This document shows, piece by piece, positions 4,314 to 39,693 of a stretch of DNA of 43,485 nt. The position numbers and the translations under genes are program-made. How positions within the stretch are numbered: the stretch's first letter is position 1; each line of letters starts with the position of its first letter. The notes beneath the pieces were generated by a model that saw nothing but the letters and a program-made list of their open reading frames with translations, was not told the origin of the DNA and ran no database searches. The stretch lies in IMG/VR virus record IMGVR_UViG_3300036861_000168, positions 1 to 43,485 of that record. One strand, given 5' to 3'. This DNA is from a virus.

Positions 4314-5624
4314 CTATGGCCCGTTGACGCCCGGTGGCGGAATCATGAGCGTGGCCGTATCGCGCGGGCTCGGATACCGCTGGGCCGCGTACTGCTGGGC
4401 GAGCGCCGCCATCTCAGGACTCACCGCCTGGGTCGGGATGCTAGCGAACATCTGACCGAGCGGCGTCGCCCCGAAGTTCGGGATGTTGGCCCCCAATTGC
4501 CCACGGAGCCATTCGGTCATGTTGCCCGGTCCGATGCCCGAGGTATCGAGCCCAAGGCTGTACACGTCGAGCGGCTGGTTCGTGCGCGGATCGATTGGGT
4601 GGGCCGCCCCCGTGGTGCCCCCGATCAGTTGATTCAGTGTCTCCCGCGGATCCCGCATCGCGGTTCGCCACAGGAGATCCGGCTGGCCGGGATTCGCGCC
4701 CTGACCCTGAACGCCCGGCGGCAGGAGTTGGCCCGTGCGGGCGGCCTGATCCATGGCCTGCACCCACCCGAGCATCGTGTCCGTGTAGGCGGGGCGGAAC
4801 AGCGCTTCGGCCTGGCTCGTATCCGCCGGCTTCGTCTTGCTCTTGGCTCCGCCCTGACCACGCGTGGCGATGAACTGCTGAATGGCTGGAGCTCCGGTCA
4901 ACCCGGTCTCCAGCGTGCCCAGCGCTCCCCGGAGTTGCGTTGGATCGGTCGGAAGGTTCCGCGCCACCTCGGCCGCCTGGAGGAATCGCGGCATGTTCTC
5001 CGCGTAGCCGCGCCTGATCTGGCCCGATTCGATAGTCTGCTTCTTCACCTTCTGGGCGTCTTTGTGCATCCTGTTCATGAAGCCTAGGGATCCGACCGCA
5101 AGGAGGGGGGCGAAGGTCGCGCCGAGCCCGGCCAGCGTGCCACCTAAGCCCATCGCCGCAGCACCGGAGCCCGCTGCGCCGGCCGCGCCCGCAGCCCCCG
5201 CCGAGGCTCCTCCGGCCGCCGGAAAGAATGAGCCGCCGAGCGCGCCGAGACTGGCCCCGACCGCCCCGGAGCCTGCACTTAGCCCTCCCGCCCAGAAGGG
5301 AATCCCCGCCCCGCCAACCAGCCCATTCAGCCAAGGGGCGGCGGTGGAGGCCATGTTGGAGAGCCCGGAAGCCGCGGAGAACGGATTGCCGCTGGCAACT
5401 CCACTGGCGAGGCCCAATGGCCCCCCCGCGGCTTCGAGCCCCGCCCCGACACCAGGAAAGCCGACGAAGCGCGACCCCATGCCCGCGACCCCAGCCCCAG
5501 TCTTGGCGAGGCCGAGGAACGCGGTCGGATCGAAGCCGTCGCCGGCCCCACCAGATGCATCCGGCAGCGGGCCTACAGGGGCTCCTGTGGGCAGTTGGGC
5601 GGCCGAGATGAAGCGGGGTGGCAT
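4314..5624 (-). CDS. Probable internal virion protein, Gly/Ala-rich, 436 aa
   Basis: Unrecognised. Residues 25-190 are very rich in Gly, Ala and Ser with long hydrophobic runs (GLGGTLAGLGATFAPLLAVG), ending at a basic stretch (HKDAQKVKK). The C-terminal 240 residues are soluble-looking and helical. The start overlaps the preceding stop as TAATG. A large hydrophobic glycine-rich domain fused to a soluble domain is what one expects of a protein that crosses membranes during DNA ejection, but no homologue is identified from sequence alone. Confidence 0.7.
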   Translation of the reverse strand: MPPRFISAAQLPTGAPVGPLPDASGGAGDGFDPTAFLGLAKTGAGVAGMGSRFVGFPGVGAGLEAAGGPLGLASGVASGNPFSAASGLSNMASTAAPWLNGLVGGAGIPFWAGGLSAGSGAVGASLGALGGSFFPAAGGASAGAAGAAGAAGSGAAAMGLGGTLAGLGATFAPLLAVGSLGFMNRMHKDAQKVKKQTIESGQIRRGYAENMPRFLQAAEVARNLPTDPTQLRGALGTLETGLTGAPAIQQFIATRGQGGAKSKTKPADTSQAEALFRPAYTDTMLGWVQAMDQAARTGQLLPPGVQGQGANPGQPDLLWRTAMRDPRETLNQLIGGTTGAAHPIDPRTNQPLDVYSLGLDTSGIGPGNMTEWLRGQLGANIPNFGATPLGQMFASIPTQAVSPEMAALAQQYAAQRYPSPRDTATLMIPPPGVNGP

Positions 5625-6601
5625 TACGTCATCGCACCTATTTCAGGGCCGAGTTGCTCTGGACGATTGGCATAAAAAGCGCCGGGCAAATTCATGCCCC
5701 CGGCACTTTGCTGGAGAGGGAGCCCTGCCCCCCCTGTTCCGCCCAGCATTCCCCGCTGTTGAAGGAACGCGAGCGCCTGGGGCTGGCTATAACCCGCTTG
5801 GGACAGTTGGCTATTGATCGCCCCTGACTGGACCATCGGGGCCAGGGATCGCATCGCCCACGGATCACCGGCCGCGCCCATACGGATCATGTCAGCCGTG
5901 GTGAACGGGTTGCCGGTCAAATTGCCCATCGCGGCCTGCATCTCAGGCGTGATCCCGCCGCCGGCACTCAGCGCGGCCTGACGGAAATTCGCGAGATCAG
6001 TCGGCAGCGTGCCCATCGACTGGGACCGCTCGAAGTTCTGCTGGAGGTTTGGATTGCTCGCCACCTGCTGCCACTGGGCCATCGTGCCGGGGTTGCTGGG
6101 GCCGGTCGGCAGTTGCGGTGTGGCACGTGGAACACCGCCCGGCTGCTGGGCCATCCCGCCGGTCGGCGCGCTGACGCCTCCGAGCCCTCCGTTCTGGCCG
6201 CCGGGAATCAGCCCTTGCTGATTCAGCCCGCCCGGACTCGTCGGCATCCACGGGTTGAAGCCGCCGCCGTGGTACGCGCTCTGCCCCTGCATCCACGGCG
6301 GGCGCTGCATTCCCATTCCGAACGGCATCGGCATCCCGCCGAATCCGCCCATGCCCATGAACGGGAAGCCCATCATGCCGGGGTAGCCGCCCATCCCCAT
6401 CTGCTGGCGCATCTGCGGGAACATGCCGCCGCCCTGCATTCCGCCACCCGCCCCGTAGGTCGTCGGGAGGTTGAAGCGCGGCTGCATCTGCATGGGCATC
6501 TGCCCACCCATGAAGTTCGGGATGTACCCGCCCTGCGGCGGCATCCAGTTCTGCCCGTTGCCGAGGCCGAGCATCTGCGGAGTGATCATCGGGTAGGGCA
6601 T
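5624..6601 (-). CDS. Met/Gly/Pro/Gln-rich low-complexity virion protein, 325 aa
   Basis: Unrecognised. The first 115 residues are extraordinarily rich in Met, Gly, Pro and Gln (for example MGMGGYPGMMGFPFMGMGG), with very few charged residues; the remainder is Gln/Gly-rich and mildly helical. An AGGTGA ribosome binding site precedes the ATG. It belongs to the block of five ejection-type proteins. The Met-rich domain could be flexible or could bind metal, but nothing shows this directly. Confidence 0.7.
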   Translation of the reverse strand: MPYPMITPQMLGLGNGQNWMPPQGGYIPNFMGGQMPMQMQPRFNLPTTYGAGGGMQGGGMFPQMRQQMGMGGYPGMMGFPFMGMGGFGGMPMPFGMGMQRPPWMQGQSAYHGGGFNPWMPTSPGGLNQQGLIPGGQNGGLGGVSAPTGGMAQQPGGVPRATPQLPTGPSNPGTMAQWQQVASNPNLQQNFERSQSMGTLPTDLANFRQAALSAGGGITPEMQAAMGNLTGNPFTTADMIRMGAAGDPWAMRSLAPMVQSGAINSQLSQAGYSQPQALAFLQQRGMLGGTGGAGLPLQQSAGGMNLPGAFYANRPEQLGPEIGAMT

Positions 6602-17339: not shown

Positions 17340-19730
17340 CTAAGCAAACGGTCCCACCCCCATGCCCTGCGCCATCGGCGCGCCGGTTCCATTCCCGCCC
17401 TGCGGCTGTGCTGGCCCCGGTCCGAGTTGCGGCTGCGCCCGGCCGGTCTGTGCGTTCATTCCTTGAACGCCGCCCGGTCCCATCGCGCCGGCCTTGCCGC
17501 CCTTGGCACCGCCCATCTGCTGAGCCATCTGCATGACGAACGCCATCTGCTGGGTCTCCGCGATATGAGCGAGGAGCAGCTCTCGGCCCTCGGCGGTGAG
17601 GAACGCGCTCTCCGGCTGATCGAGGAAGAAGTAATGTTCCATGATGTGACGCTGCATGTCCTCGGCTGGCGAGGGGTGCACGTCCTTGCCCGCGCCCGAG
17701 AGGAACATCGCGTGCTCCTGCACCGGCTCCTTCGGGGGCACGAACTGCGGGGCCTGGAGGATGCGCAGGGGATCCCGCTCGCCATACGCCTTGAGAAAAT
17801 CCTTCGCCAGCTCGAAGATGCCGTTGAGCCCCATCGTCTGCGACTGGAGAAAGACGGGGTTCATCATCGTGGTGAGCTTGATCTGCGCCGTCTCCCGCAT
17901 GGACTGCTTGTTGAGCGTCTCCGTGGTCGCGGAGAGCCGGAGATCGAACTTCCCTTGAATCTCCGTGCGGTCCTGGATGCGGATCACCTCGGGCCGCCCC
18001 GTGACGCGGAACTCCTTGCCTGGCGGGAGGTACTGCTGATCGAGCGCGAGAATCTGGATGTAGATGCGCCGCCAGAACTCTTGGAAGCGCGACATGAAGA
18101 CCTTGAACCGGAGGCCGGATTCCGAGAGCAGTGAGGCGACGCCGGTTGCGGTCCGCGTCGCCCCCACGCGGTTCGGCTGGCGGCCCAGCGCCATGTCGGT
18201 CACTCCGGTCAGCCGCTCGTTGTACTGCTGGAGCAGCGCTTCCTCCTGGAAGCCGAACGCCGTGTTGGTGCGGAACTGGGGGAACAGGATATCGGTCTGC
18301 GGGTTATCCACCGGCACGCCTTCCCCTGGCCGGAGCCGATGCTGCGTCGGCTTCAGCATGGAGGTGGAGCGGTAGAAGTAGAACGGCAGATTGCCGATGG
18401 TCCCGTAGTCCACCCGCTGGTTGTGCATGGTGGACATCTCGTCCTGCACCTCGCGGATCATCTCGGGGAGACTGAGCCCGAGCGTCCGGTTTGGCAGCGG
18501 CATGAAGACTTCCTTCTCGAATGGCCGCTTGCCGGACGCGTTCACATTGTCGAGGTAGTCCCACCCGAGCGTCAACTTGTGGGGCTCGGCGACCCAGGAG
18601 ACGATTTCCTCCGAGTAGCCGTCCTCGTCAATGTCCTTCGCGCGGTAGTCCTCCAGCACGCAATACATGTCCGCCCGCATGTCCGAGGACTCTGGGTCCA
18701 CGCCCTCTTGGCGGTCAAGCGTCTGCCGCGCCCCGTCGGCGTCCATCACGTCGTCCATGCCAGTGGGACCGCGGCGGATCACTTCCTCCACGATCTCCCG
18801 GTCGAACTGGCCCCGCCGTGCCCGCTGGCGCAATTCGTCCTCGCTCATCCAGAGCCGATGCTGAAGCCAGCGGAACTTCTGGGGATCGCGTCCCGCGCGA
18901 GCCGGCGCGATCACGTCCTCGGGATCGGGAAACTCGACGGATGCGCCCTCGAACTGCAACTCCTCCTTGTCGAGGAGCACCTGGATCTCGTCCTCGAAGA
19001 ACGCGAACTCGGCCGCCACGTCCGTGCGCCGGCCGCCGGGCATCCTGAGCTTGCCCTTCCATACGAAGTCCTCGCCCGGCTGGCGCTCCAAGTCCTCCGG
19101 CACCGCCTGACCAAAAAGCGTCTGGAAGATGATGTCGAGGCTCGTGGTCGGGGGGAACTTCCGGATGGCCTTGATCTTTCGGTAGCGCCGATCCCACCGA
19201 ATCTTCCCCCATACGACGCCAGCCACGAGGAAGAGATGCGCCGATTCGTCCGCCAGCGCGAAGATGTCGAGCTCGGTGTCCACTTGCCAGTTGAGGAACA
19301 GTTCCGTCAGCTCGGCCTTGTCGTCATCCTCGGGGCCGACCGGGATCACGAGCACCTTCGGCTCCTGCCCGACAATCGCCTCGATGAGCCGCGGCTTGAG
19401 CGTCTCCACGTCCGTCATGGTGACCGGGGGATGAAAGTTGGCCGCGCCCTCCCACGGGAAGTCCTTCGGCGTCGTCTCGTTCAGGTAGCGCCGATACCCC
19501 TGGTCGAGCTTGTCTTCCCACTCGAGGCGATCGGAGAGCGCGTCCAAGTAGTCGCGATGCACCTCACTCGCATGATCGGCCAGATCGAACTCCGGCACGT
19601 CGTGGAGCTTGTCCGTGAGCCGGAGTCGCGGCTGCTCCTCAGCGGGCGGGGCCTCCACGGCGATCACCGTGGGGAGGTCGTCCACCGATTCGACCGGCTG
19701 CGCGGCGTCGAGTTGGGTGTTTTCAGCCAT
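17340..19730 (-). CDS. Portal protein, P22-like, 796 aa
   Basis: This forms the dodecameric ring through which DNA enters and leaves the head. The start MAENTQLDAAQPVES overlaps the terminase stop (TGATG); an upstream codon would add 42 residues lying inside the terminase gene. Length and layout fit P22-like portals: an acidic N-terminus, a core with DYLDALSDRLEWEDKLDQGY and RLIEAIVGQEPKVLVIPVG, the crown/stem region with TGVTDMALGRQPNRVGATRT, and a C-terminal Gly/Gln-rich tail from about residue 735 (MGGAKGGKAGAMGPGG) that resembles a flexible barrel extension. The large size favours a podovirus-like head. Confidence 0.85.
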   Translation of the reverse strand: MAENTQLDAAQPVESVDDLPTVIAVEAPPAEEQPRLRLTDKLHDVPEFDLADHASEVHRDYLDALSDRLEWEDKLDQGYRRYLNETTPKDFPWEGAANFHPPVTMTDVETLKPRLIEAIVGQEPKVLVIPVGPEDDDKAELTELFLNWQVDTELDIFALADESAHLFLVAGVVWGKIRWDRRYRKIKAIRKFPPTTSLDIIFQTLFGQAVPEDLERQPGEDFVWKGKLRMPGGRRTDVAAEFAFFEDEIQVLLDKEELQFEGASVEFPDPEDVIAPARAGRDPQKFRWLQHRLWMSEDELRQRARRGQFDREIVEEVIRRGPTGMDDVMDADGARQTLDRQEGVDPESSDMRADMYCVLEDYRAKDIDEDGYSEEIVSWVAEPHKLTLGWDYLDNVNASGKRPFEKEVFMPLPNRTLGLSLPEMIREVQDEMSTMHNQRVDYGTIGNLPFYFYRSTSMLKPTQHRLRPGEGVPVDNPQTDILFPQFRTNTAFGFQEEALLQQYNERLTGVTDMALGRQPNRVGATRTATGVASLLSESGLRFKVFMSRFQEFWRRIYIQILALDQQYLPPGKEFRVTGRPEVIRIQDRTEIQGKFDLRLSATTETLNKQSMRETAQIKLTTMMNPVFLQSQTMGLNGIFELAKDFLKAYGERDPLRILQAPQFVPPKEPVQEHAMFLSGAGKDVHPSPAEDMQRHIMEHYFFLDQPESAFLTAEGRELLLAHIAETQQMAFVMQMAQQMGGAKGGKAGAMGPGGVQGMNAQTGRAQPQLGPGPAQPQGGNGTGAPMAQGMGVGPFA

Positions 19731-20656
19731 CAATACCCGCCCCGTCGCCCCGCCGTGTAGGCGTAGGTTCGCGCACGCGCGGCCTGCTCGCCATGGCCTG
19801 GCCCGTAATGCTCGGCGAGATTTGAGAAGTGATTTGTCACGAGATACCGCAAGCACGCCTGAGTGTGCGAAAAGTAGCCGTCATCATCCGGTTCATCGTG
19901 GTACGTGCCGTCCGTCTTCATCTTGTACGTGTAGCCGCCGAGCATGCCCGAGATGATAATGGGACAGCGACGGGTGACGAGCAGGGCGGGGGACTTGTCA
20001 TCGCGCTCGCGAAGAAGCTGGTGGATGATGGCGCGTCCGGTCTTACGAGGACGCGGCGAGTAGGCGGGATAAATCCCGTAGCGCGCGAGCACCTGAAGCT
20101 CGGTCGTCTCGCTCTGCTCTGACATGATCGACCGTACTTGCGCGCCAGCCGGATCACAATAGTCGGCGTAACCCCATGCCGACCAGTCGCCGAATGAGTC
20201 CGCGCAGTACTGGATGACCTTCTGCGCAAAGCGGTCGATATCGAGGTCTCTGCCCTGTAACTCTCCGTAGAGGATCAGCCGGTCCCGCGAATCCACCTGG
20301 GCGATCACGACGGCCGGGTGGTGATAGCCGAAGTCCCAGGATCGGAGGAGCCGACGGCGACGGCGTGGCATCAGATCGGCCGCCAGCCGCCCCATATTCT
20401 GCTCGTCCAGTACGTGGTCCTGCTCGGAGAACTCGGGGAAGCACCGCTTGCCGGCAGTGACATCAAACGAGCACTCCATCTCACGCTGGAAGTCATTCGG
20501 ATCGAGATAGCGGAGCCGCTGCTTCTCAAGCCAGGCTCGCGCCTCCTCTGCCAACTCGGGATCTGCGGAGTGCGGATCGTGATTCGGAAAGAGACTGTAA
20601 TGCGCCCGGATACTGACCACGCCCAGGGGATTCTTCGCCAGAGTCAGCCCCCTCAT
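19730..20656 (-). CDS. Terminase large subunit, nuclease domain, 308 aa
   Basis: This holds the RNase H-like nuclease of the DNA packaging motor, which cuts the concatemer. Visible acidic positions: SWDFGYHHPAVVIAQVD (Asp at about 108), ADYCDPAGAQ (Asp at 165 or 168), and a C-terminal EPDDDGYFSHTQACLRYL, consistent with a three-acid active site. The ATG lies in the ATGA overlap with the ATPase gene; the sequence before it in the same frame has no start codon. Normal terminases carry both domains in one chain, so this is half of a split protein. See the partner ATPase gene. Confidence 0.85.
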   Translation of the reverse strand: MRGLTLAKNPLGVVSIRAHYSLFPNHDPHSADPELAEEARAWLEKQRLRYLDPNDFQREMECSFDVTAGKRCFPEFSEQDHVLDEQNMGRLAADLMPRRRRRLLRSWDFGYHHPAVVIAQVDSRDRLILYGELQGRDLDIDRFAQKVIQYCADSFGDWSAWGYADYCDPAGAQVRSIMSEQSETTELQVLARYGIYPAYSPRPRKTGRAIIHQLLRERDDKSPALLVTRRCPIIISGMLGGYTYKMKTDGTYHDEPDDDGYFSHTQACLRYLVTNHFSNLAEHYGPGHGEQAARARTYAYTAGRRGGY

Positions 20657-21393
20657 TGCTCGGTCGTTCCCGAGAACATCTGCCAGAATGCGTTCTGCTT
20701 CCCATTCGGCGTGGAGACGCAGATCAGCTTCGTCTGCTTCTGGATCGTCGGGAGCACGGCGGTGACGGACAGCCGCGCCTGCTCCATGAACGCCATCTCA
20801 TCCATCACGACCACCGATGGCGTCTTTGACCGCACCTGATGGCCACCTTCGGGAATGGCGACAACCTTGGAGCCGTTCGGCCACGTGATTTCTCCGTGAC
20901 CGAAACGCGCTCGCCCGTTGATCCACTCCGCGCCATTCCACGAGCGATCCCGCATCCAGGTGGGGAGATTCTGCTCTATGAACTCCATGCGCGCGGTGTC
21001 GTGGCGCTTCTCTCCGTGGCTTACCATGTCGATCGCGTCTTGCTCGCGCTTCGACTGCCAGACGATGAGTCGATTCGGATGGAAGCGCCCAACATGGACA
21101 CAGAACGAGCAACACTCCCACGACATCATGATCTGACGCGACTTCGCAATGGCGTAGAGGTTCTCATTCGGATCAGCTAGCGCGGTCCAGATCGCCTCAA
21201 GCTGCGCGAGATCCGGAAACGCCTTCACGCTCTCCTCGGCACCGGCCGCCTCGTCCCGCGTCTTCACGTGATTGACGACCCAGTACCAGCCGTCCTGACG
21301 GCAGCGCTCCAGCTCGGCCAGGATGAGGCCCGAGACAAGCTTCTGCTGCTCGTCGGGGGCCAGCACCTCGAGGTCGGGGGCGGTGAGGCTCAC
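20653..21393 (-). CDS. Terminase large subunit, ATPase domain, 246 aa
   Basis: This is the packaging ATPase. The GTG start (MSLTAPDLEVLAPDEQQ) overlaps the previous TAG by one base. A Walker A-like loop is seen at YAIAKSRQIMMSW (about 80-92), the Walker B with catalytic Glu at SVVVMDEMAF (about 193-202), and the coupling motif at CVSTPNGKQNAFW (about 225-237). The protein stops at TGA 14 residues after that motif, where a complete terminase would run on into the nuclease. It therefore covers only the motor half and must act with the 308-aa nuclease gene. Confidence 0.87.
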   Translation of the reverse strand: MSLTAPDLEVLAPDEQQKLVSGLILAELERCRQDGWYWVVNHVKTRDEAAGAEESVKAFPDLAQLEAIWTALADPNENLYAIAKSRQIMMSWECCSFCVHVGRFHPNRLIVWQSKREQDAIDMVSHGEKRHDTARMEFIEQNLPTWMRDRSWNGAEWINGRARFGHGEITWPNGSKVVAIPEGGHQVRSKTPSVVVMDEMAFMEQARLSVTAVLPTIQKQTKLICVSTPNGKQNAFWQMFSGTTEQ

Positions 21394-21782
21394 TAGATGC
21401 GTTTCTCCGCTTGGGTGGTGACCTTCAGGAGGCACGAGCCGCCGGCATTGCCATTCGTCGGAGCCGGGCGAATGTAGTAGGTCGCCTCCAGCACTTGCTT
21501 GATATTGGCGCTCGTGATGGAGAGCGCGGTCGTCCCGTCCACCTCATGCAGCGTCGCGTAGACTGCCGCTGCCGTCGCGATCGCGTTGGACCCCTCGATG
21601 TGGATGGTACCGTGCGTGGTGCCTGCTGTCTGGACGTTCCGGTCGGTGAGAATCGCGGCTTGCTGAAGCGCGAACTGATTGCCGTCGGGGAAAGCGACAC
21701 ACGTATCCCCGGAGGCGAAGCCCGACCAGTTCACGAGGTAGCCGCCCACGATCGGCGTGGCGGTGTAGTTGATGGTGGCCAT
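21393..21782 (-). CDS. Beta-rich virion-associated protein, 129 aa
   Basis: Ser/Thr/Ala-rich, with short beta segments (TATPIVGGYLVNWSGFASGD) and low charge. It is followed directly by the terminase start and preceded by the 71-aa gene, in the stretch between fibre and packaging genes. Likely a virion or fibre-associated protein; family unknown. It has no terminase-small-subunit HTH pattern. Confidence 0.6.
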   Translation of the reverse strand: MATINYTATPIVGGYLVNWSGFASGDTCVAFPDGNQFALQQAAILTDRNVQTAGTTHGTIHIEGSNAIATAAAVYATLHEVDGTTALSITSANIKQVLEATYYIRPAPTNGNAGGSCLLKVTTQAEKRI

Positions 21783-30312: not shown

Positions 30313-30505
30313 TCGGGGTCTCCGTCTGGACCGTGTAGTCGAGTCCGACAAACGCCGCCCGGAGCGCATCGTCCAGGACGTTGCCTTGCGGATCACGAGC
30401 AAGCCACCACCGCAGCACCTCGTCCTGGACCCTGACGGTGACCGCGAAGCCGGAACGCTCGACGATCACCCAAGTCGTGTCCGCGGCCTTCTCACTCACG
30501 CCCAT
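30302..30505 (-). CDS. Small hypothetical protein, 67 aa
   Basis: Starts MGVSEKAADTTWVIVERSGF, a mixed alpha/beta sequence (FAVTVRVQDEVLRWWLARDP). Overlaps the next gene by ten bases. No family recognised. Confidence 0.55.
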   Translation of the reverse strand: MGVSEKAADTTWVIVERSGFAVTVRVQDEVLRWWLARDPQGNVLDDALRAAFVGLDYTVQTETPSVG

Positions 30506-30726
30506 ATCCCCCGCTTCCAGCTCGCCTGACTGCCTGGGGGTAACTTGTCGGCGATCTCTCGGCAGAACGGCGGAAACCGGACGGGACCCGATGGCGCCGT
30601 AAAGCCCTCCACCTTGAACGTCGCCAACAGGTCATCGCCCCGGTCATACAACGCGGCGAGATTCAGCCGCCCCGGCGCCTCCTTTTGCCCGCCGGGGGGT
30701 GGAGTCGAGGCCGGGGAGGGGGTCAT
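30496..30726 (-). CDS. Small hypothetical protein, 76 aa
   Basis: The start MTPSPASTPPPGGQKEAPGR is taken because the ATG overlaps the upstream stop (ATGA). The first 25 residues are Pro-rich and disordered; the rest is mixed (LLATFKVEGFTAPSGPVRF). Function unknown. Confidence 0.55.
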   Translation of the reverse strand: MTPSPASTPPPGGQKEAPGRLNLAALYDRGDDLLATFKVEGFTAPSGPVRFPPFCREIADKLPPGSQASWKRGIWA

Positions 30727-30974
30727 GTGACCGCCGCCTTCTGCCGAAACGCCTGCCCGGGCCGCGCGTGCTTGAGCCCCCACCGGAATTGCGCGAGCGG
30801 CACGCGATAGAACCGCCCGCTCACCTCCGTCCCACGCTTCGTCTCCCGCACGACCCCGATCCCCAGCCGCGCCAGCTTCCGCCACACCGCCGGGCTCGCC
30901 GACCACACGTGCACCACCCGCTCCTCCTCGTCCCACCGGATCACCGTCTCCCGCTCCGCCTTGATGAGCCCCAT
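30723..30974 (-). CDS. Small hypothetical protein, 83 aa
   Basis: ATG preceded by AAAGGG. Begins MGLIKAERETVIRWDEEERV, a basic and Trp-containing chain (WSASPAVWRKLARLGIGVVR) that could be a small alpha-beta domain. It is the first gene of the tight small-gene chain (27.4-31 kb); the preceding region has no compelling gene. Confidence 0.6.
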   Translation of the reverse strand: MGLIKAERETVIRWDEEERVVHVWSASPAVWRKLARLGIGVVRETKRGTEVSGRFYRVPLAQFRWGLKHARPGQAFRQKAAVT

Positions 30975-31131
30975 ACACCGGCCCTTTCCCGGCCCCTCAC
31001 CCCCAGGGCCGCTGTCTCGGTATGCCCGGTACCGCCCGCGCCCGGTTTCACGCGGCTACACCGACGATCCCTGAGGTCCTCGAGGCGATTTCAGGGCTGG
31101 CGGGAGAGACAGTGGGTGCCCCCCCACCTCA

Positions 31132-31329
31132 TCACGCGCAAATGGACGGCTGCCCACCTGCGGCCTCGGGGGGAGAGGTCAGCCCGCCAGCCGTCTCCCC
31201 CCGCCTCGCGCTCACCCGCTCCAGCCCGAGTCGCCAGGTCCGGGCGCATCGGGCACACTCCGCCGGCCGGTGAGGCGTCGCCCTGGCCGTGGTCACGGTC
31301 GATGACTCACCGCTCCAGCGGATTGACAT
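31132..31329 (-). CDS. Doubtful small gene, 65 aa
   Basis: A frame starting MSIRWSGESSTVTTARATP, with one CARC pair (ECARCARTWRLGLE). A weak AAGAGA site lies upstream and the C-terminal half is Pro/Gly-rich low complexity. The codon pattern is only moderately coding-like. The 157 bases between it and the 83-aa gene hold a weak GGCCC/GGGCC hairpin and no clear gene. Confidence 0.35.
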   Translation of the reverse strand: MSIRWSGESSTVTTARATPHRPAECARCARTWRLGLERVSARRGETAGGLTSPPEAAGGQPSICA

Positions 31330-31371
31330 AATATCTCTTAGCGGACGCCGCATCGCGTTTATCCTGTTATC

Positions 31372-31725
31372 TCACGTACTTGCAGAATGACGCGCCACTG
31401 ACTGTCCATCCGCTGACACCGTTTCAGCGTCCGTTGAGTGGTTTAACGCACCGCTCAGCGCTGGTGCATGTCGCCTCAACAGCCCGGCCAACTCCTCCGG
31501 CGTCACCGCCAGCACCCCGAGTTGATTCGTTACCTGGACGGGCTCCCGCGGGATCGGAGCCGTCCGCGCCAGCACGATCTCGGCGGCCTTCAACTGCGCG
31601 TATTCCTTGTCGGAACGCATCACGCGGGAGACCGTCTTTACAGCCCTCGCGTGGAGCGCGTCGAGACTGGCGCGGCGCGGATCCCGAATATGGTCCGGTA
31701 GCACAATCTCCGTGTAATAGGGCAA
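31372..31725 (-). CDS. Terminase small subunit-like candidate, 117 aa
   Basis: TTG start (MPYYTEIVLPDHIRDPRR) is the only long option; a GTG eight codons downstream is an alternative. Residues 20-60 are helical (HARAVKTVSRVMRSDKEYAQ) and then QVTNQLGVLAVTPEELAGLL, a pattern seen in small phage DNA-recognition proteins, including some small terminase subunits. It lies 10 kb from the large terminase genes, which is unusual. The assignment is weak; a general DNA-binding protein is just as likely. Confidence 0.45.
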   Translation of the reverse strand: MPYYTEIVLPDHIRDPRRASLDALHARAVKTVSRVMRSDKEYAQLKAAEIVLARTAPIPREPVQVTNQLGVLAVTPEELAGLLRRHAPALSGALNHSTDAETVSADGQSVARHSAST

Positions 31726-35671: not shown

Positions 35672-35878
35672 ATGGTGCCTGTCCGTCACCGCCCGGCCTA
35701 CCAGCTTCAGAAGCAGCTCCGCCAAGCTGGCGTCACCCAGCTCGACATCGCGGAGCGCGCCCGCGTCTCTGAATCGCTGGTGAGTCTCGTGATCCGCCGA
35801 CGGCGCGTGTCGGCCGGTGCGGCGAAACAGGCGGCGATCTGGGCGGCGATCGAGCAGGCATTGAACGGGCGCGACTGA
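35672..35878 (+). CDS. XRE/Cro-like HTH regulator, 68 aa
   Basis: Residues 20-45 (GVTQLDIAERARVSESLVS) fit a helix-turn-helix of the XRE/Cro class. It is likely the phage repressor or Cro-like regulator, read from a strong promoter as a leaderless mRNA (as phage lambda cI is from PRM). No ribosome binding site is present. The stop overlaps the next ATG (TGATG). Confidence 0.75.
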   Translation: MVPVRHRPAYQLQKQLRQAGVTQLDIAERARVSESLVSLVIRRRRVSAGAAKQAAIWAAIEQALNGRD

Positions 35879-36075
35879 TGGACCGTCGCCCGCCCGTGAA
35901 GATGGAGAGCCGGGATGAGCGCATCACCTTCCGCGTGGCGCAATCGCTCAAGGACACGCTCGCCGCTGCCGCACTCGAATACGGCGACGAGTTGGCCCGG
36001 TACTGCCGTGACTGCCTCGTCATGGGCCACACGATGCGCGAGAGCCAGAAGATGCTCAAGCGGACAGTTGGCTAA
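35878..36075 (+). CDS. Arc/ribbon-helix-helix-like protein, 65 aa
   Basis: Residues 13-45 (ERITFRVAQSLKDTLAAAAL, then EYGDELARYC) resemble a ribbon-helix-helix DNA-binding domain, though with Cys in the second helix. Co-translated with the HTH gene (TGATG). It is followed directly by paired palindromes, which may be its binding sites. Confidence 0.5.
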   Translation: MDRRPPVKMESRDERITFRVAQSLKDTLAAAALEYGDELARYCRDCLVMGHTMRESQKMLKRTVG

Positions 36076-36077
36076 CG

Positions 36078-36118
36078 TTGGCAGCCAATGACCGCCAGCG
36101 TGGCAGCCAATGTCTGCC
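36078..36118. promoter_or_regulatory. Tandem palindromic operator pair
   Basis: TTGGCAGCCAA (36078-36088) and TGGCAGCCA (36101-36109) are palindromes embedded in a 12-bp direct repeat TGGCAGCCAATG (36079-36090 and 36101-36112). Their starts are 22 bp apart, about two helical turns. A further CTGCCG follows. They lie between the Arc-like gene and the conserved phage gene. Confidence 0.6.
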
Positions 36119-36138
36119 GAGAAAGGACAAGCCCTAAT

Positions 36139-36813
36139 ATGTGGACCCGCTACAACATCCGCTGGGAGTTCCTTACAGACCTGTGTGGGAGCGTGCCTGC
36201 CGATCCTGCACTGGTGAAGAAGTGGCTGGAGGCACGCAAGCCGACGGTCAAGCCGCCGCAGGGGAAGTCCATTGACGACATCGCCGCTGAGGTGGCCGCG
36301 ACGACGTTCGCGCCCGAAGAGGAGATGGAGCACAGCTTCCTGACGTTCCAGCGGGTCAATGGCGGGCTCGCCAATCGAGCGGCTACCATCCGTGCCCACC
36401 TGAAGGATTGCGCGACCGTACTCTCCTCGCTCTACGTTGGCAGGGTGGAGAAGGAGCGCAGTTTCGCGGTCAAGGTGAAGAACGCGCTCTACTGGCCACC
36501 GGACTGCTACTGGGTACCGATCCTCAACCGCGATGGCCAGCCGGTGACCGAGCCCACAGGCACGCGAGATGTGCCGGTCCATGTCATGACTCGCCAAGGC
36601 CCGATCAACGCACTCAAGACCTTAGAGTACGTGAGCAACGCGGTGATGGAGTTCCCCCTGCTCATCCTCACGCCGCCGAGCGGGAAACCGGTCATCAGCG
36701 AGGCCGATCTGAAGACGCTGATGATGTACGGCGGCACGCACGGCTACGGCGGGGAGCGGTCGCTGGACGGTGGGCGGTACGTGTTCAGTATCGCCCAGGC
36801 TGGCGACGAATAG
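36139..36813 (+). CDS. Conserved phage protein of unknown function, 224 aa
   Basis: Start MWTRYNIRWEFLTDLCGSVP with AAAGGA eleven bases upstream; a GTG or ATG further up would overlap the operators. The layout (DPALVKKWLEARKP; SLYVGRVEKERSFAVKVKNA; VPVHVMTRQGPINALKTLEY; GYGGERSLDGGRYVFSI) resembles a family of early proteins seen in several GC-rich phages, of unknown role. No nuclease or ATPase motif is visible. It is followed by the repeat tract. Confidence 0.65.
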   Translation: MWTRYNIRWEFLTDLCGSVPADPALVKKWLEARKPTVKPPQGKSIDDIAAEVAATTFAPEEEMEHSFLTFQRVNGGLANRAATIRAHLKDCATVLSSLYVGRVEKERSFAVKVKNALYWPPDCYWVPILNRDGQPVTEPTGTRDVPVHVMTRQGPINALKTLEYVSNAVMEFPLLILTPPSGKPVISEADLKTLMMYGGTHGYGGERSLDGGRYVFSIAQAGDE

Positions 36814-37520
36814 CGTCACGACGGGTCGTGGTGGGCCGTGAAATGGCGGGCGATGACGGCGAGTGCTGTGGGGCGGCGAAGCGTGGAGGTGCGATCCGCA
36901 ATGGCGTCGAGGGTTGAGTTCGGGGGTCATGATTCGTGGCGAAATGACGCCGAGAACTGATTGGTTGTGCCCGGCAGAGGCGTGACGGCGAGATGCGTAG
37001 CGGGGTGACGCGAAGATGCGGCGTCGTGGTGAGAAGCCGAGAAGTGCCGCGAGTAGAGGTGCGGTGGTGCGATCTGATCCGGCGACGAGTTCTGTGGTGT
37101 CGCGGTGCGGATGGTTGAGCGAGGGCGTGTAGAGATAGGGCGTCGAGATTCGATACGTATCGTTGCGACATGAAATGAGACGGCGACGAGAAGTGAGGCG
37201 AGGCGAAGCGCGCGGTGACGGCGACGAGTACTGTCACGAGCCGGACAGACACGCCGACGAGATGCGGGACGAACCGGTTCGAAGCGCGGTGCGGTGACGA
37301 CGGGTAGCGCAGACGAGTAGCGACCTGAGCCGTTGTGGCGACGAGAGGCGTCGCGTGGCGAAGCTGAGGTGAAGGGGCGTGGGGCGAGCCGTTGAGGCGA
37401 CGAGAAGTGTCGTGGAGTGCGGAGCGGTGACGGTGAGGAGAAGCGTTGAGCCGTGACGCCGAGGGGCAGCTTGTTGTGCCTGCGAAGTGAAATGGGACGA
37501 CGACGCGAAAGGAGAACATC
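36814..37520 (+). repeat. Degenerate purine-rich repeat tract, gene-free
   Basis: About 700 bases with no plausible plus-strand gene. G/A-rich units recur imperfectly: GGCGACGAGAAGTG (37182 and 37397), GCGGTGACGGCGACGAG (37212), GAGCCGTTGAGGCGACGAG (37386) and GAGCCGTTGTGGCGACGAG (37328). Two 34-base units, at 37166 and 37483, differ at only about eight positions, and a related unit starts near 36838. The last copy leads into the ribosome binding site of the next gene. A long minus-strand frame across it is compositional. It may be an origin, an RNA regulator or decayed gene matter. Confidence 0.65.
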
Positions 37521-37784
37521 ATGGCTGATCTGAAGACCTTGCAGGGCATCGGAGCGGCGCGCGAGGAGCTCTACAACAAGCTGGCCGCTGGGGAGATCCC
37601 GGAGACGCGGGCCAACATCATGGAGCGCGTGCTGCGCGGCCAGGTCGCGCTGAAGGGCGAGCTGCCCATGCGCTTCGTCAAGCTCGTCGCAGGCTACAAG
37701 GGCGGCAAGCTGGAGGGCTACGTCGCCTCCACCGTCGGTGAGATCGCCGGCTTCATCGGCGAGGGCAAGGCGCTGACGGAGTGA
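37521..37784 (+). CDS. Small hypothetical protein, 87 aa
   Basis: ATG with AAAGGAG seven bases upstream. Starts MADLKTLQGIGAAREELYNK, mixed helix and Gly-rich (KLVAGYKGGKLEGYVASTVG). First gene after the repeat tract and of a tight chain. Unrecognised. Confidence 0.75.
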   Translation: MADLKTLQGIGAAREELYNKLAAGEIPETRANIMERVLRGQVALKGELPMRFVKLVAGYKGGKLEGYVASTVGEIAGFIGEGKALTE

Positions 37785-38546: not shown

Positions 38547-38788
38547 CGAGCGAGCAGGCCCTCGCCATCTTGGAGCGCGCCGAAGCCCGCCAACCCACGC
38601 TCCTCGGCCTTCTTACCCGCCGGATGCTCCGCGCCGAAGCGATGGAGAACCGGCTCCACCGGGAGCGGAACATTCTGCGGCAGGCGTTGACGAAGTTAAG
38701 GATGGGCGTGGAGCCGGAGATCATCAAGGCTGAGTTGATCGCGCACGGGTTTCGGTGGCTCAAGAGCACGAGGGAGAGGAGCAACTGA
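38543..38788 (+). CDS. Small helical protein, 81 aa
   Basis: The start MTSEQALAILERAEARQPTL overlaps the previous gene as ATGA; an upstream GTG would add 25 residues inside it. Helical and basic (MENRLHRERNILRQALTKLR). Function unknown. Confidence 0.65.
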   Translation: MTSEQALAILERAEARQPTLLGLLTRRMLRAEAMENRLHRERNILRQALTKLRMGVEPEIIKAELIAHGFRWLKSTRERSN

Positions 38789-39693
38789 TGGCAAGCTTGG
38801 AACTGGCGAAGCGTGAGCAGGCAATAGCGGTGTTGCCCGCCGAGATGACCATCGAGGAGCTCGTGGCGCGGACGAAGAAGGTGACCGCTGCCATGCAGGC
38901 GGTCATGAAGGACGGTGAGCACTACGGCGTGATTCCCGGCACCAAGAAGCCGACGCTGCTGAAGCCGGGGGCCGAGAAGCTCGCCAACCTGTTCATGCTC
39001 GACCCGGAGTACGAGACTACGGAAACCTTCGATCAGGACCACCTGACCGTCGTGAGCCGCTGCACGCTGTACCACATCCCGACCGGGAACCGGCTGGGCT
39101 CAGGCATGGGCTCCTGCTCCACCAAGGAATCGAAGTATGCCTACCGCATCGCTGCCCGGAAATGCCCGAGCTGCGGCAAGGAAGCGATCATCCGGGGCAA
39201 GGAGGAGTACGGCGGCGGGTGGCTCTGCTTCAAGAAGAAGGACGGGTGCGGGGCCAAGTTCAAGGACGGCGATGCGTCGATTGAGGAGCAGGAGAGCGGG
39301 CGCGTCGCCAACGAGGACAAGGCCGACCAGTACAACACCGTGCTCAAGATGGCGAACAAGCGGAGCCTCGTCGCGGCGGTCCTGAACGTGACGGCGGCCT
39401 CGGACATCTTCACGCAGGATCTCGAGGATTCGCCGCCGGAGGAGCCCAAGCGACCGGCGGAGCGGATGACGCCTGAGCAGCTCTCGCCCCAAGCCGATGC
39501 CAACGTGCTGCTGGGGCGAATCCAGGCCGGCTTCGACTTAATGCGCTTCACGCCCGAGGAACGCCAAGCCATCTGGAAGCAGGCGTGTGGCGAAGCCGCG
39601 TTCATGACCGATGAGGCCGACGTGGCGGCGCTGGCGACATTGTACGAGACGCTGGCCGCGAGGCACAAGGCGGCGGTGAAGGGGAAGCGATGA
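38788..39693 (+). CDS. Conserved phage protein with zinc insert, 301 aa
   Basis: Start MASLELAKREQAIAVLPAEM overlaps the previous stop (TGATG). The segment EHYGVIPGTKKPTLLKPGAE and TGNRLGSGMGSCSTKESKYA, a CPSC/C-x(n)-C zinc module (ARKCPSCGKEAIIRGKEE, then GWLCFKKKDGCG), and LKMANKRSLVAAVLNVTAAS form a pattern found in many GC-rich phages. The final part is helical. The last motif recalls single-strand annealing proteins, but the similarity is weak. It may aid recombination or replication with the downstream nuclease. Confidence 0.65.
   Translation: MASLELAKREQAIAVLPAEMTIEELVARTKKVTAAMQAVMKDGEHYGVIPGTKKPTLLKPGAEKLANLFMLDPEYETTETFDQDHLTVVSRCTLYHIPTGNRLGSGMGSCSTKESKYAYRIAARKCPSCGKEAIIRGKEEYGGGWLCFKKKDGCGAKFKDGDASIEEQESGRVANEDKADQYNTVLKMANKRSLVAAVLNVTAASDIFTQDLEDSPPEEPKRPAERMTPEQLSPQADANVLLGRIQAGFDLMRFTPEERQAIWKQACGEAAFMTDEADVAALATLYETLAARHKAAVKGKR

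Follow-up and report, generated by a model that had tools for sequence, protein, structure and literature searches.

The window analysed here, 43,485 bp in length, is the whole of an IMG/VR virus record (IMGVR_UViG_3300036861_000168). Podovirus-like structural genes (portal, terminase, head) lie on its minus strand and a block of small genes on its plus strand; the carrier is an uncultivated tailed phage. A tract of 707 nt (36814-37520) separates the stop codon of the ORF at 36088-36813 from the start of the ORF at 37521-37784. The initial annotation had described this tract as gene-free and some 700 bp long, and it is: stops occur in all plus-strand frames (9-12 in each) and codon-position GC periodicity is absent (0.655/0.638/0.626 in the minus-strand reading; the upstream gene has, for example, 0.60/0.47/0.81).

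The portal protein retrieved one 97% relative (L002; 6.5 kb, without the tract region) and otherwise distant ones. The nearest of these, MW202601, has nothing but structural genes in common with the window except for a single weak match; the helicase-like protein retrieved none. A 14-mer scan of viral_contigs returned the window itself as the sole locus with a like tract, and blastn searches of phages and plasmids, with the tract or its flanking sequence as query, gave nothing or short chance matches. Single-sequence searches with the flanking proteins found none in viral_contigs, where the peptide patterns were too specific, and none in phages.

Elsewhere in the record, the large terminase is split into two overlapping minus-strand ORFs (19730-20656 and 20653-21435). 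L002 has the identical arrangement (3-779 and 776-1690), so that the split is probably genuine and a sequencing error improbable. Also on the minus strand, 27637-28701 matches phrog_21308 (a radical SAM domain-containing phage family, E 5e-10). On the plus strand, two small genes occupy 35672-36075, immediately ahead of the cassette described below; the product of the first is helix-turn-helix-like by eye and that of the second has a weak phrog_30270 match (E 0.0067). The plus-strand gene at 38755-39693 encodes a function-unknown protein that recurs widely in phages (E 3e-49 to phrog_10048), with up to 42% identity in Myxococcus phage Mx4.

A G lattice across the tract

The tract has a GC skew of +0.37, the most extreme of any 707-nt window in the record (the next outside it is -0.24), and is 64% purine. 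GG dinucleotides are depleted in it to 0.58 of expectation, for which reason a G-quadruplex or R-loop zone was rejected. The tract folds like shuffles (z 0.30), neither strand doing better than these, an Rfam search returned 0 matches and a promoter and terminator scan led nowhere. The second most skewed stretch of the record, 30450-31500 (plus strand C-rich, skew down to -0.24), encloses a gap of about 400 nt between called ORFs (30975-31371) and is absent from the periodic peaks. High-skew stretches in L003, L007, L008, L018, L066 and L091 were set aside as coding or different by eye.

The tract had been read as degenerate purine-rich repeats. Repetition and purine content hold, but the tract is a G lattice and not a loose repeat. 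Its self-similarity is clear: GGCGACGAGAAGTG occurs in two exact copies and GGCGACGAG in five, and there are 49 repeated 9-mer pairs compared with means of 8.9, 11.5 and 22.5 in Markov simulations of order 1, 2 and 3, which reached at least 49 in 0, 0 and 2 of 400 runs. The two nearly alike 34-base units reported 317 bases apart reduce to a 29-nt ungapped pair (37164-37192), 24/29 identical by eye, which is outscored by a pair at lag 59.

The feature missed by the initial annotation is the periodicity. Over the whole interval between the two flanking genes, stop codon to start codon, a G returns at steps of ~2.5 nt. Base autocorrelation peaks at lags 3, 5, 10, 13, 15, 18, 20, 23 and onwards, beyond 50, giving a quasi-period of about 2.54 nt that is carried above all by G; locally the pattern is GNNGN, with one G after 2 and then 3 nt. 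At f = 0.394, G has a Fourier power 33 times that expected at random, and the best phase bin is 97% G. In 80-nt windows the lattice power is 10-20 from 36800 to 37519, at most 4.7 in windows starting before 36800 and at most 6.5 in those starting from 37480; the signal spans the whole tract and falls at both flanking genes. In 400-nt windows it reaches 41.4 in the tract, compared with 14.6 for the strongest off-codon signal elsewhere in the window; among the other collected loci a few peaks, at period 6, are stronger. Markov models of order 1 to 3 attained the G power of the tract in 0/300 simulations each. Those of order 4, 5 and 6 did so in 2, 14 and 44 of 300; such models partly copy a 707-nt sequence.

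Units and handles

About 13 units make up the tract, with (NN-[G]-Y-G)n as their body and NCNNCGAG as their handle of 8 nt (Table 1). Units were parsed by splitting at the handle, with 8+5n as regular spacing. In the window, 13 handles leave 12 gaps, seven of which are regular (p 0.004) and five of which break the rule; the regular units hold 5-10 pentamers in about 33-60 nt. Across 15 loci of the family described below, 103/143 handle gaps are of 8+5n (p 7e-41), L249, L257, L266, L273 and L274 having been left out of this test as they apparently use other handles. Every gap conforms in L263 (11/11), L265 (11/11), L271 (7/7) and L270 (5/5). One handle, GACGCCGAG, is found in L155 and L236 as well as in the window. 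The ACGAGAA of the window's handle resembles the 5' tag of type III CRISPR RNA, a likeness to which we give no weight.

Table 1 Features of the cassette in the window
Feature	Position	Strand	Basis
RAMP (Cas7/Csm3-like by prediction), 224 aa, Vipr-like	36139-36813	+	homologues, predicted fold
Guide-like array, ~13 units, NN-[G]-Y-G pentamers and handle NCNNCGAG	36814-37520	+	G periodicity, handle/unit parse
Handle ACGGCGAG	36856-36863	+	unit parse
Guide-like unit, 8 pentamers	36864-36903	+	unit parse
Handle GCGTCGAG	36904-36911	+	unit parse
Guide-like unit, 7 pentamers	36912-36946	+	unit parse
Handle ACGCCGAG	36947-36954	+	unit parse
Guide-like unit, 6 pentamers	36955-36984	+	unit parse
Handle ACGGCGAG	36985-36992	+	unit parse
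Two irregular-length units (not 8+5n), handle GCCGCGAG at 37046-37053	36993-37081	+	unit parse
Handle GCGACGAG	37082-37089	+	unit parse
Guide-like unit, 10 pentamers	37090-37139	+	unit parse
Handle GCGTCGAG	37140-37147	+	unit parse
Guide-like unit, 7 pentamers	37148-37182	+	unit parse
Handle GCGACGAG	37183-37190	+	unit parse
Guide-like unit, 6 pentamers	37191-37220	+	unit parse
Handle GCGACGAG	37221-37228	+	unit parse
Guide-like unit, 5 pentamers	37229-37253	+	unit parse
Handle CCGACGAG	37254-37261	+	unit parse
Three irregular-length units (not 8+5n), handles at 37338-37345 and 37397-37404	37262-37455	+	unit parse
Last handle ACGCCGAG; lattice continues to 37520	37456-37463	+	unit parse, G periodicity
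Accessory gene of cassette, 87 aa, candidate vap-like	37521-37784	+	iterated hmmsearch family

Pentamers pooled over the family (n = 690) have near maximal entropy at positions 1 and 2 (1.97 and 1.98 bits). Position 5 is G in 0.99, position 4 is T or C in 0.82 and 0.13, and position 3 is G in 0.47, being nearly free in low-GC members. The 49 window pentamers have G at position 5 in 98%, C or T at position 4 in 74% and G at position 3 in 43%. From these biases we take [G]YG as the scaffold and NN as the part that varies. The handle turns the alternating 3-2 steps into 3-3-2, which would explain a period of 2.54 instead of 2.50.

A conserved RAMP-array-accessory cassette

The ORF upstream of the tract is open from 36088, and its homologues begin at the MWT of 36139. 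Neither Pfam nor PHROG matched the 36139-36813 protein, a PDB sequence search returned 0 matches, and a Pfam scan of 21 of these RAMPs gave only scattered single-member matches (best E 0.028) that we take as chance. An AlphaFold model built on 21 homologues (pLDDT 84.7, pTM 0.76) has Csm3/Cas7 proteins as its top Foldseek matches (best E 8.6e-7); VIA gave Z 13.5 over 176 residues at 4.5 A, and the best 50 PDB matches from Foldseek and VIA are all class 1 CRISPR complexes or their subunits. The second match in BFVD is a 'Cas system-associated RAMP superfamily protein' (E 6e-12), and the PADLOC Csm4 profile matches 3/21 members (best E 9e-4). A conserved C-terminal YGG-HGY-GER...GRY stands at the place of the G-loop, a label assigned by eye. 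By its predicted fold, the product is a RAMP of Cas7/Csm3 type.

The window RAMP is 47-50% identical to homologues beside lattices in L155, L196 and L236. A profile of three window-type RAMPs retrieved 25 viral loci and one locus in a Phycisphaerales MAG, and all 26 bear a G lattice on the sense strand of the RAMP gene, compared with 1/120 control loci taken from the 14-mer scan of viral_contigs. The lattice is at least 240 nt long in 24/26 and lies nearly always downstream of the gene. Six of the 26 are duplicates (L254, L258, L259, L260, L268, L272), leaving 20 distinct loci; L253, L255 and the L257 group are on contigs also fetched by the lattice pattern described below (L155, L236, L132), so that 17 of the 20 are loci which that pattern had not fetched. 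The suggestion that so long a tract is likely to have a function is supported by this conservation beside one protein.

The tract does adjoin the next gene, as had been noted; that gene, then called early, is an accessory member of the same cassette. Iterated hmmsearch places its family in 12/21 cassettes (E 2.4e-21 at the last round), between RAMP and array in L253 and after the array in the window and L257. As read from sequence comparison, the window holds a three-part cassette of RAMP, array and accessory gene at 36139-37784. Near-identical copies of the locus carry identical arrays, and for this reason guide turnover could not be seen.

Some more distant loci vary the theme. In the Phycisphaerales MAG (L274, CP070827.1, a bacterial chromosome record) the RAMP gene and array at 4989-5925 have a different handle, TGATCGGCG. 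In Microcystis phage Mae-JY09 (L277, PP395641.1; 2960-3420) a protein distantly homologous to the RAMP of the window is followed by a lattice with C in place of G (C power 12.8 at f 0.395), and a gut phage (L278, MT835477.1; 2301-2620) has a distant RAMP homologue with a G lattice upstream.

Scanning viral_contigs with a DNA pattern of 16 lattice Gs returned at least 120 stretches, many of them holding clusters of up to 20 pattern matches; among the matches listed, 86/120 have a clear spectral peak. Three that were read individually (L183, L230, L231) are pentanucleotide microsatellites, and others are intergenic lattices beside conserved genes. A second RAMP family, here L135-type, is encoded in 50/120 stretches (again among the matches listed) and has the same predicted fold as the window RAMP. 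In L135, L137, L148, L154, L156, L159, L166, L210 and L248 a RAMP gene is flanked by GYG/NN lattices, as in the window. The RAMP of these loci is of another family, of about 190 aa; several arrays surround the gene on the opposite strand (in loci read by eye), their blocks often starting CGTTGCGTTGCG, with A-rich spacers between. The lattice thus follows RAMP genes and not one operon layout.

The tract as a probable guide array

The nearest described system is VIPR (Viral Interference Programmable Repeat), known from a 2026 preprint (PMC13142463). As outlined there, Vipr is a phage RAMP that uses guide RNAs of GGY/NN pentamers from long intergenic regions and targets DNA by a 1-nt-skip code; the system is recognised by a single phage-encoded RAMP of about 20 kD with an RRM core and a G-loop. 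Seven types are described, with a 'related consensus' of repeats, varied array forms and accessory genes vap1-6. Type II, of Escherichia phage SUSP1 and a P. fulva prophage, has RNAs of 9-16 repeats with a conserved structured 3' tail. A literature search for gapped-code RNA-guided systems found no report besides this one. As a positive control, GGYNN arrays flank ALH47069 and ALH47068 in the SUSP1 locus (KT454805.2), in agreement with the preprint; these arrays were found only by the GGYNN pattern, the spectral test not having flagged them. We assigned ALH47069 as the SUSP1 Vipr from its position, size and similarity to L135-type RAMPs, of which L166 matches it by BLAST at E 1e-8; L150, outside the 50, does so at E 1e-12.

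The window has a single phage RAMP of 224 aa with a predicted Cas7/Csm3 fold, and a long intergenic region that starts at the RAMP stop codon. Its period-5 [G]YG/NN departs from strict GGY/NN and agrees with it as a 'related consensus' only. Like type II as outlined in the preprint, the locus has a small candidate accessory gene and several guide-like units. The scaffold is GYG, with one base loose, where type II has GGY; ~13 units form one dense array, unlike type II; and in place of ~100-nt RNAs with a pseudoknotted 3' tail there are units of some 33-60 nt whose 8-nt handle is unstructured. The accessory gene apparently belongs to another, unannotated family than that of type II, and the RAMPs are only weakly similar in sequence: hhalign of the window family with the L135-type family plus SUSP1 gave E 1e-4 over 126 collinear columns (probability 57.5), and without SUSP1 E 7e-4 (probability 26), where one unrelated control (portal) gave E 0.58. 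This modest link to the SUSP1/L135-type Viprs is suggestive only. Given 5-10 pentamers per unit, the 8-nt handle and shuffle-like folding, we do not file the window under type II; it may coincide with another of the seven types that the preprint describes. As a tentative proposal, which we hold at rather less than even odds, it would be a VIPR type additional to these: numerous short guides would be densely arrayed and cut at a linear handle of 8 nt, two to three bases of each pentamer would vary (NN[N]/YG), and the scaffold base would differ between lineages, as with the C lattice of Mae-JY09.

With Class 1 CRISPR-Cas (the type III Csm3 or type VII Cas7 backbone) the window shares the predicted RAMP fold and an array of handle plus variable segment. 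It differs in that identical palindromic repeats are absent and the variable part is interrupted every 5 nt. A CRISPR-Cas array was rejected: only the 8-nt degenerate handle recurs, the remainder being period-5 lattice, and Pfam and PHROG scans of the window ORFs given found no cas genes.

We propose that the tract is a variant VIPR-type guide array, densely packed, with GYG/NN as its repeat and a handle reduced to a minimum, and put the probability of this at about 85%. It would be transcribed in the operon sense as a G-lattice RNA of ~13 units, each ending in the 8-nt handle NCNNCGAG, at which it may be processed. The RAMP would bind this RNA and polymerise along a unit, as Cas7 does on crRNA, gripping the [G]-Y-G scaffold once per five nucleotides and exposing the variable NN pairs, which would then pair with a target in gapped fashion. 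By VIPR precedent the target would be DNA of a competing phage or prophage, which would be silenced, and the small protein encoded 3' of the tract would assist. Of the 107 parsed units, the 60 with 7 or more pentamers were searched against 2.6 Mb of collected loci with skips of 0-3, and no convincing target was found there. Units with at most one mismatch numbered 14, 15, 20 and 12 of 60, compared with shuffled means of 12.2, 12.5, 12.7 and 13.1. Skip 2 (20/60; shuffled mean 12.7, sd 2.7) exceeded all 30 shuffles as one of four rules tested; skip 1, the published rule, did not.

The absence of convincing targets in these 2.6 Mb speaks for a rival reading, in which the lattice would serve the RAMP as a platform of RNA or DNA (an assembly scaffold, decoy or autoregulatory leader) with no guide function. 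A G lattice alone would offer a Cas7-like protein a regular grip, and the identical locus copies lack guide turnover. We nevertheless regard a platform as unlikely. Positions 1 and 2 are near maximal in entropy across genomes of quite different GC while position 5 is 99% G; the units are handle-bounded and vary in number and length, as in guide arrays; and in the closest described relatives (PMC13142463) RNAs of this kind serve as guides. A decoy for a nucleic-acid-binding protein, as had been suggested, leaves two hypervariable bases in every five unexplained. Those free positions also tell against a functionless pentanucleotide satellite, grown by slippage and since decayed, since decay would strike all positions alike, and one stays 98-99% G. 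Pure microsatellites do occur among the pattern matches (L183, L230, L231), but the association with a single protein family in 26/26 loci, together with the unit rule 8+5n, makes such a satellite very improbable.

A cis element acting at the level of DNA, such as a replication origin or an iteron array, is just as improbable. The strand asymmetry is strong, and the genome's divergent junction and its zinc-finger primase and AAA genes are close by, but the spacing is irregular and in the window family the lattice is always on the sense strand of the RAMP gene; the origin proposed by the initial annotation found nothing in its support, the irregular units being tied to that gene. As for a minus-strand gene, frames of 254 and 299 aa are open across the whole tract, because TTA, CTA and TCA are scarce in it (0, 0 and 3 in 707 nt). 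With no codon periodicity in the tract and no PHROG family matched by either frame, coding can practically be dismissed. The earlier guess of a regulatory RNA comes nearest, although the tract would supply a RAMP with a whole series of guide RNAs, not a single regulatory RNA.

The position of the guide-like array between a RAMP gene and a small helper gene suggests that the phage probably carries an RNA-guided weapon of the VIPR kind. If the tract is a guide array, a plain 'gene-free repeat' of an uncultivated phage is a bank of about 13 guides, and the G-lattice signature finds such banks in raw DNA without protein homology. The 20 distinct loci would then provide a second, differently coded family in which to test which bases are read and how units are processed. 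Should the type indeed lie outside those described, the scaffold of RAMP-guided recognition would have been re-coded several times. As a guide-array family, it would also inform the relation of RAMP-guided systems to Class 1 CRISPR.
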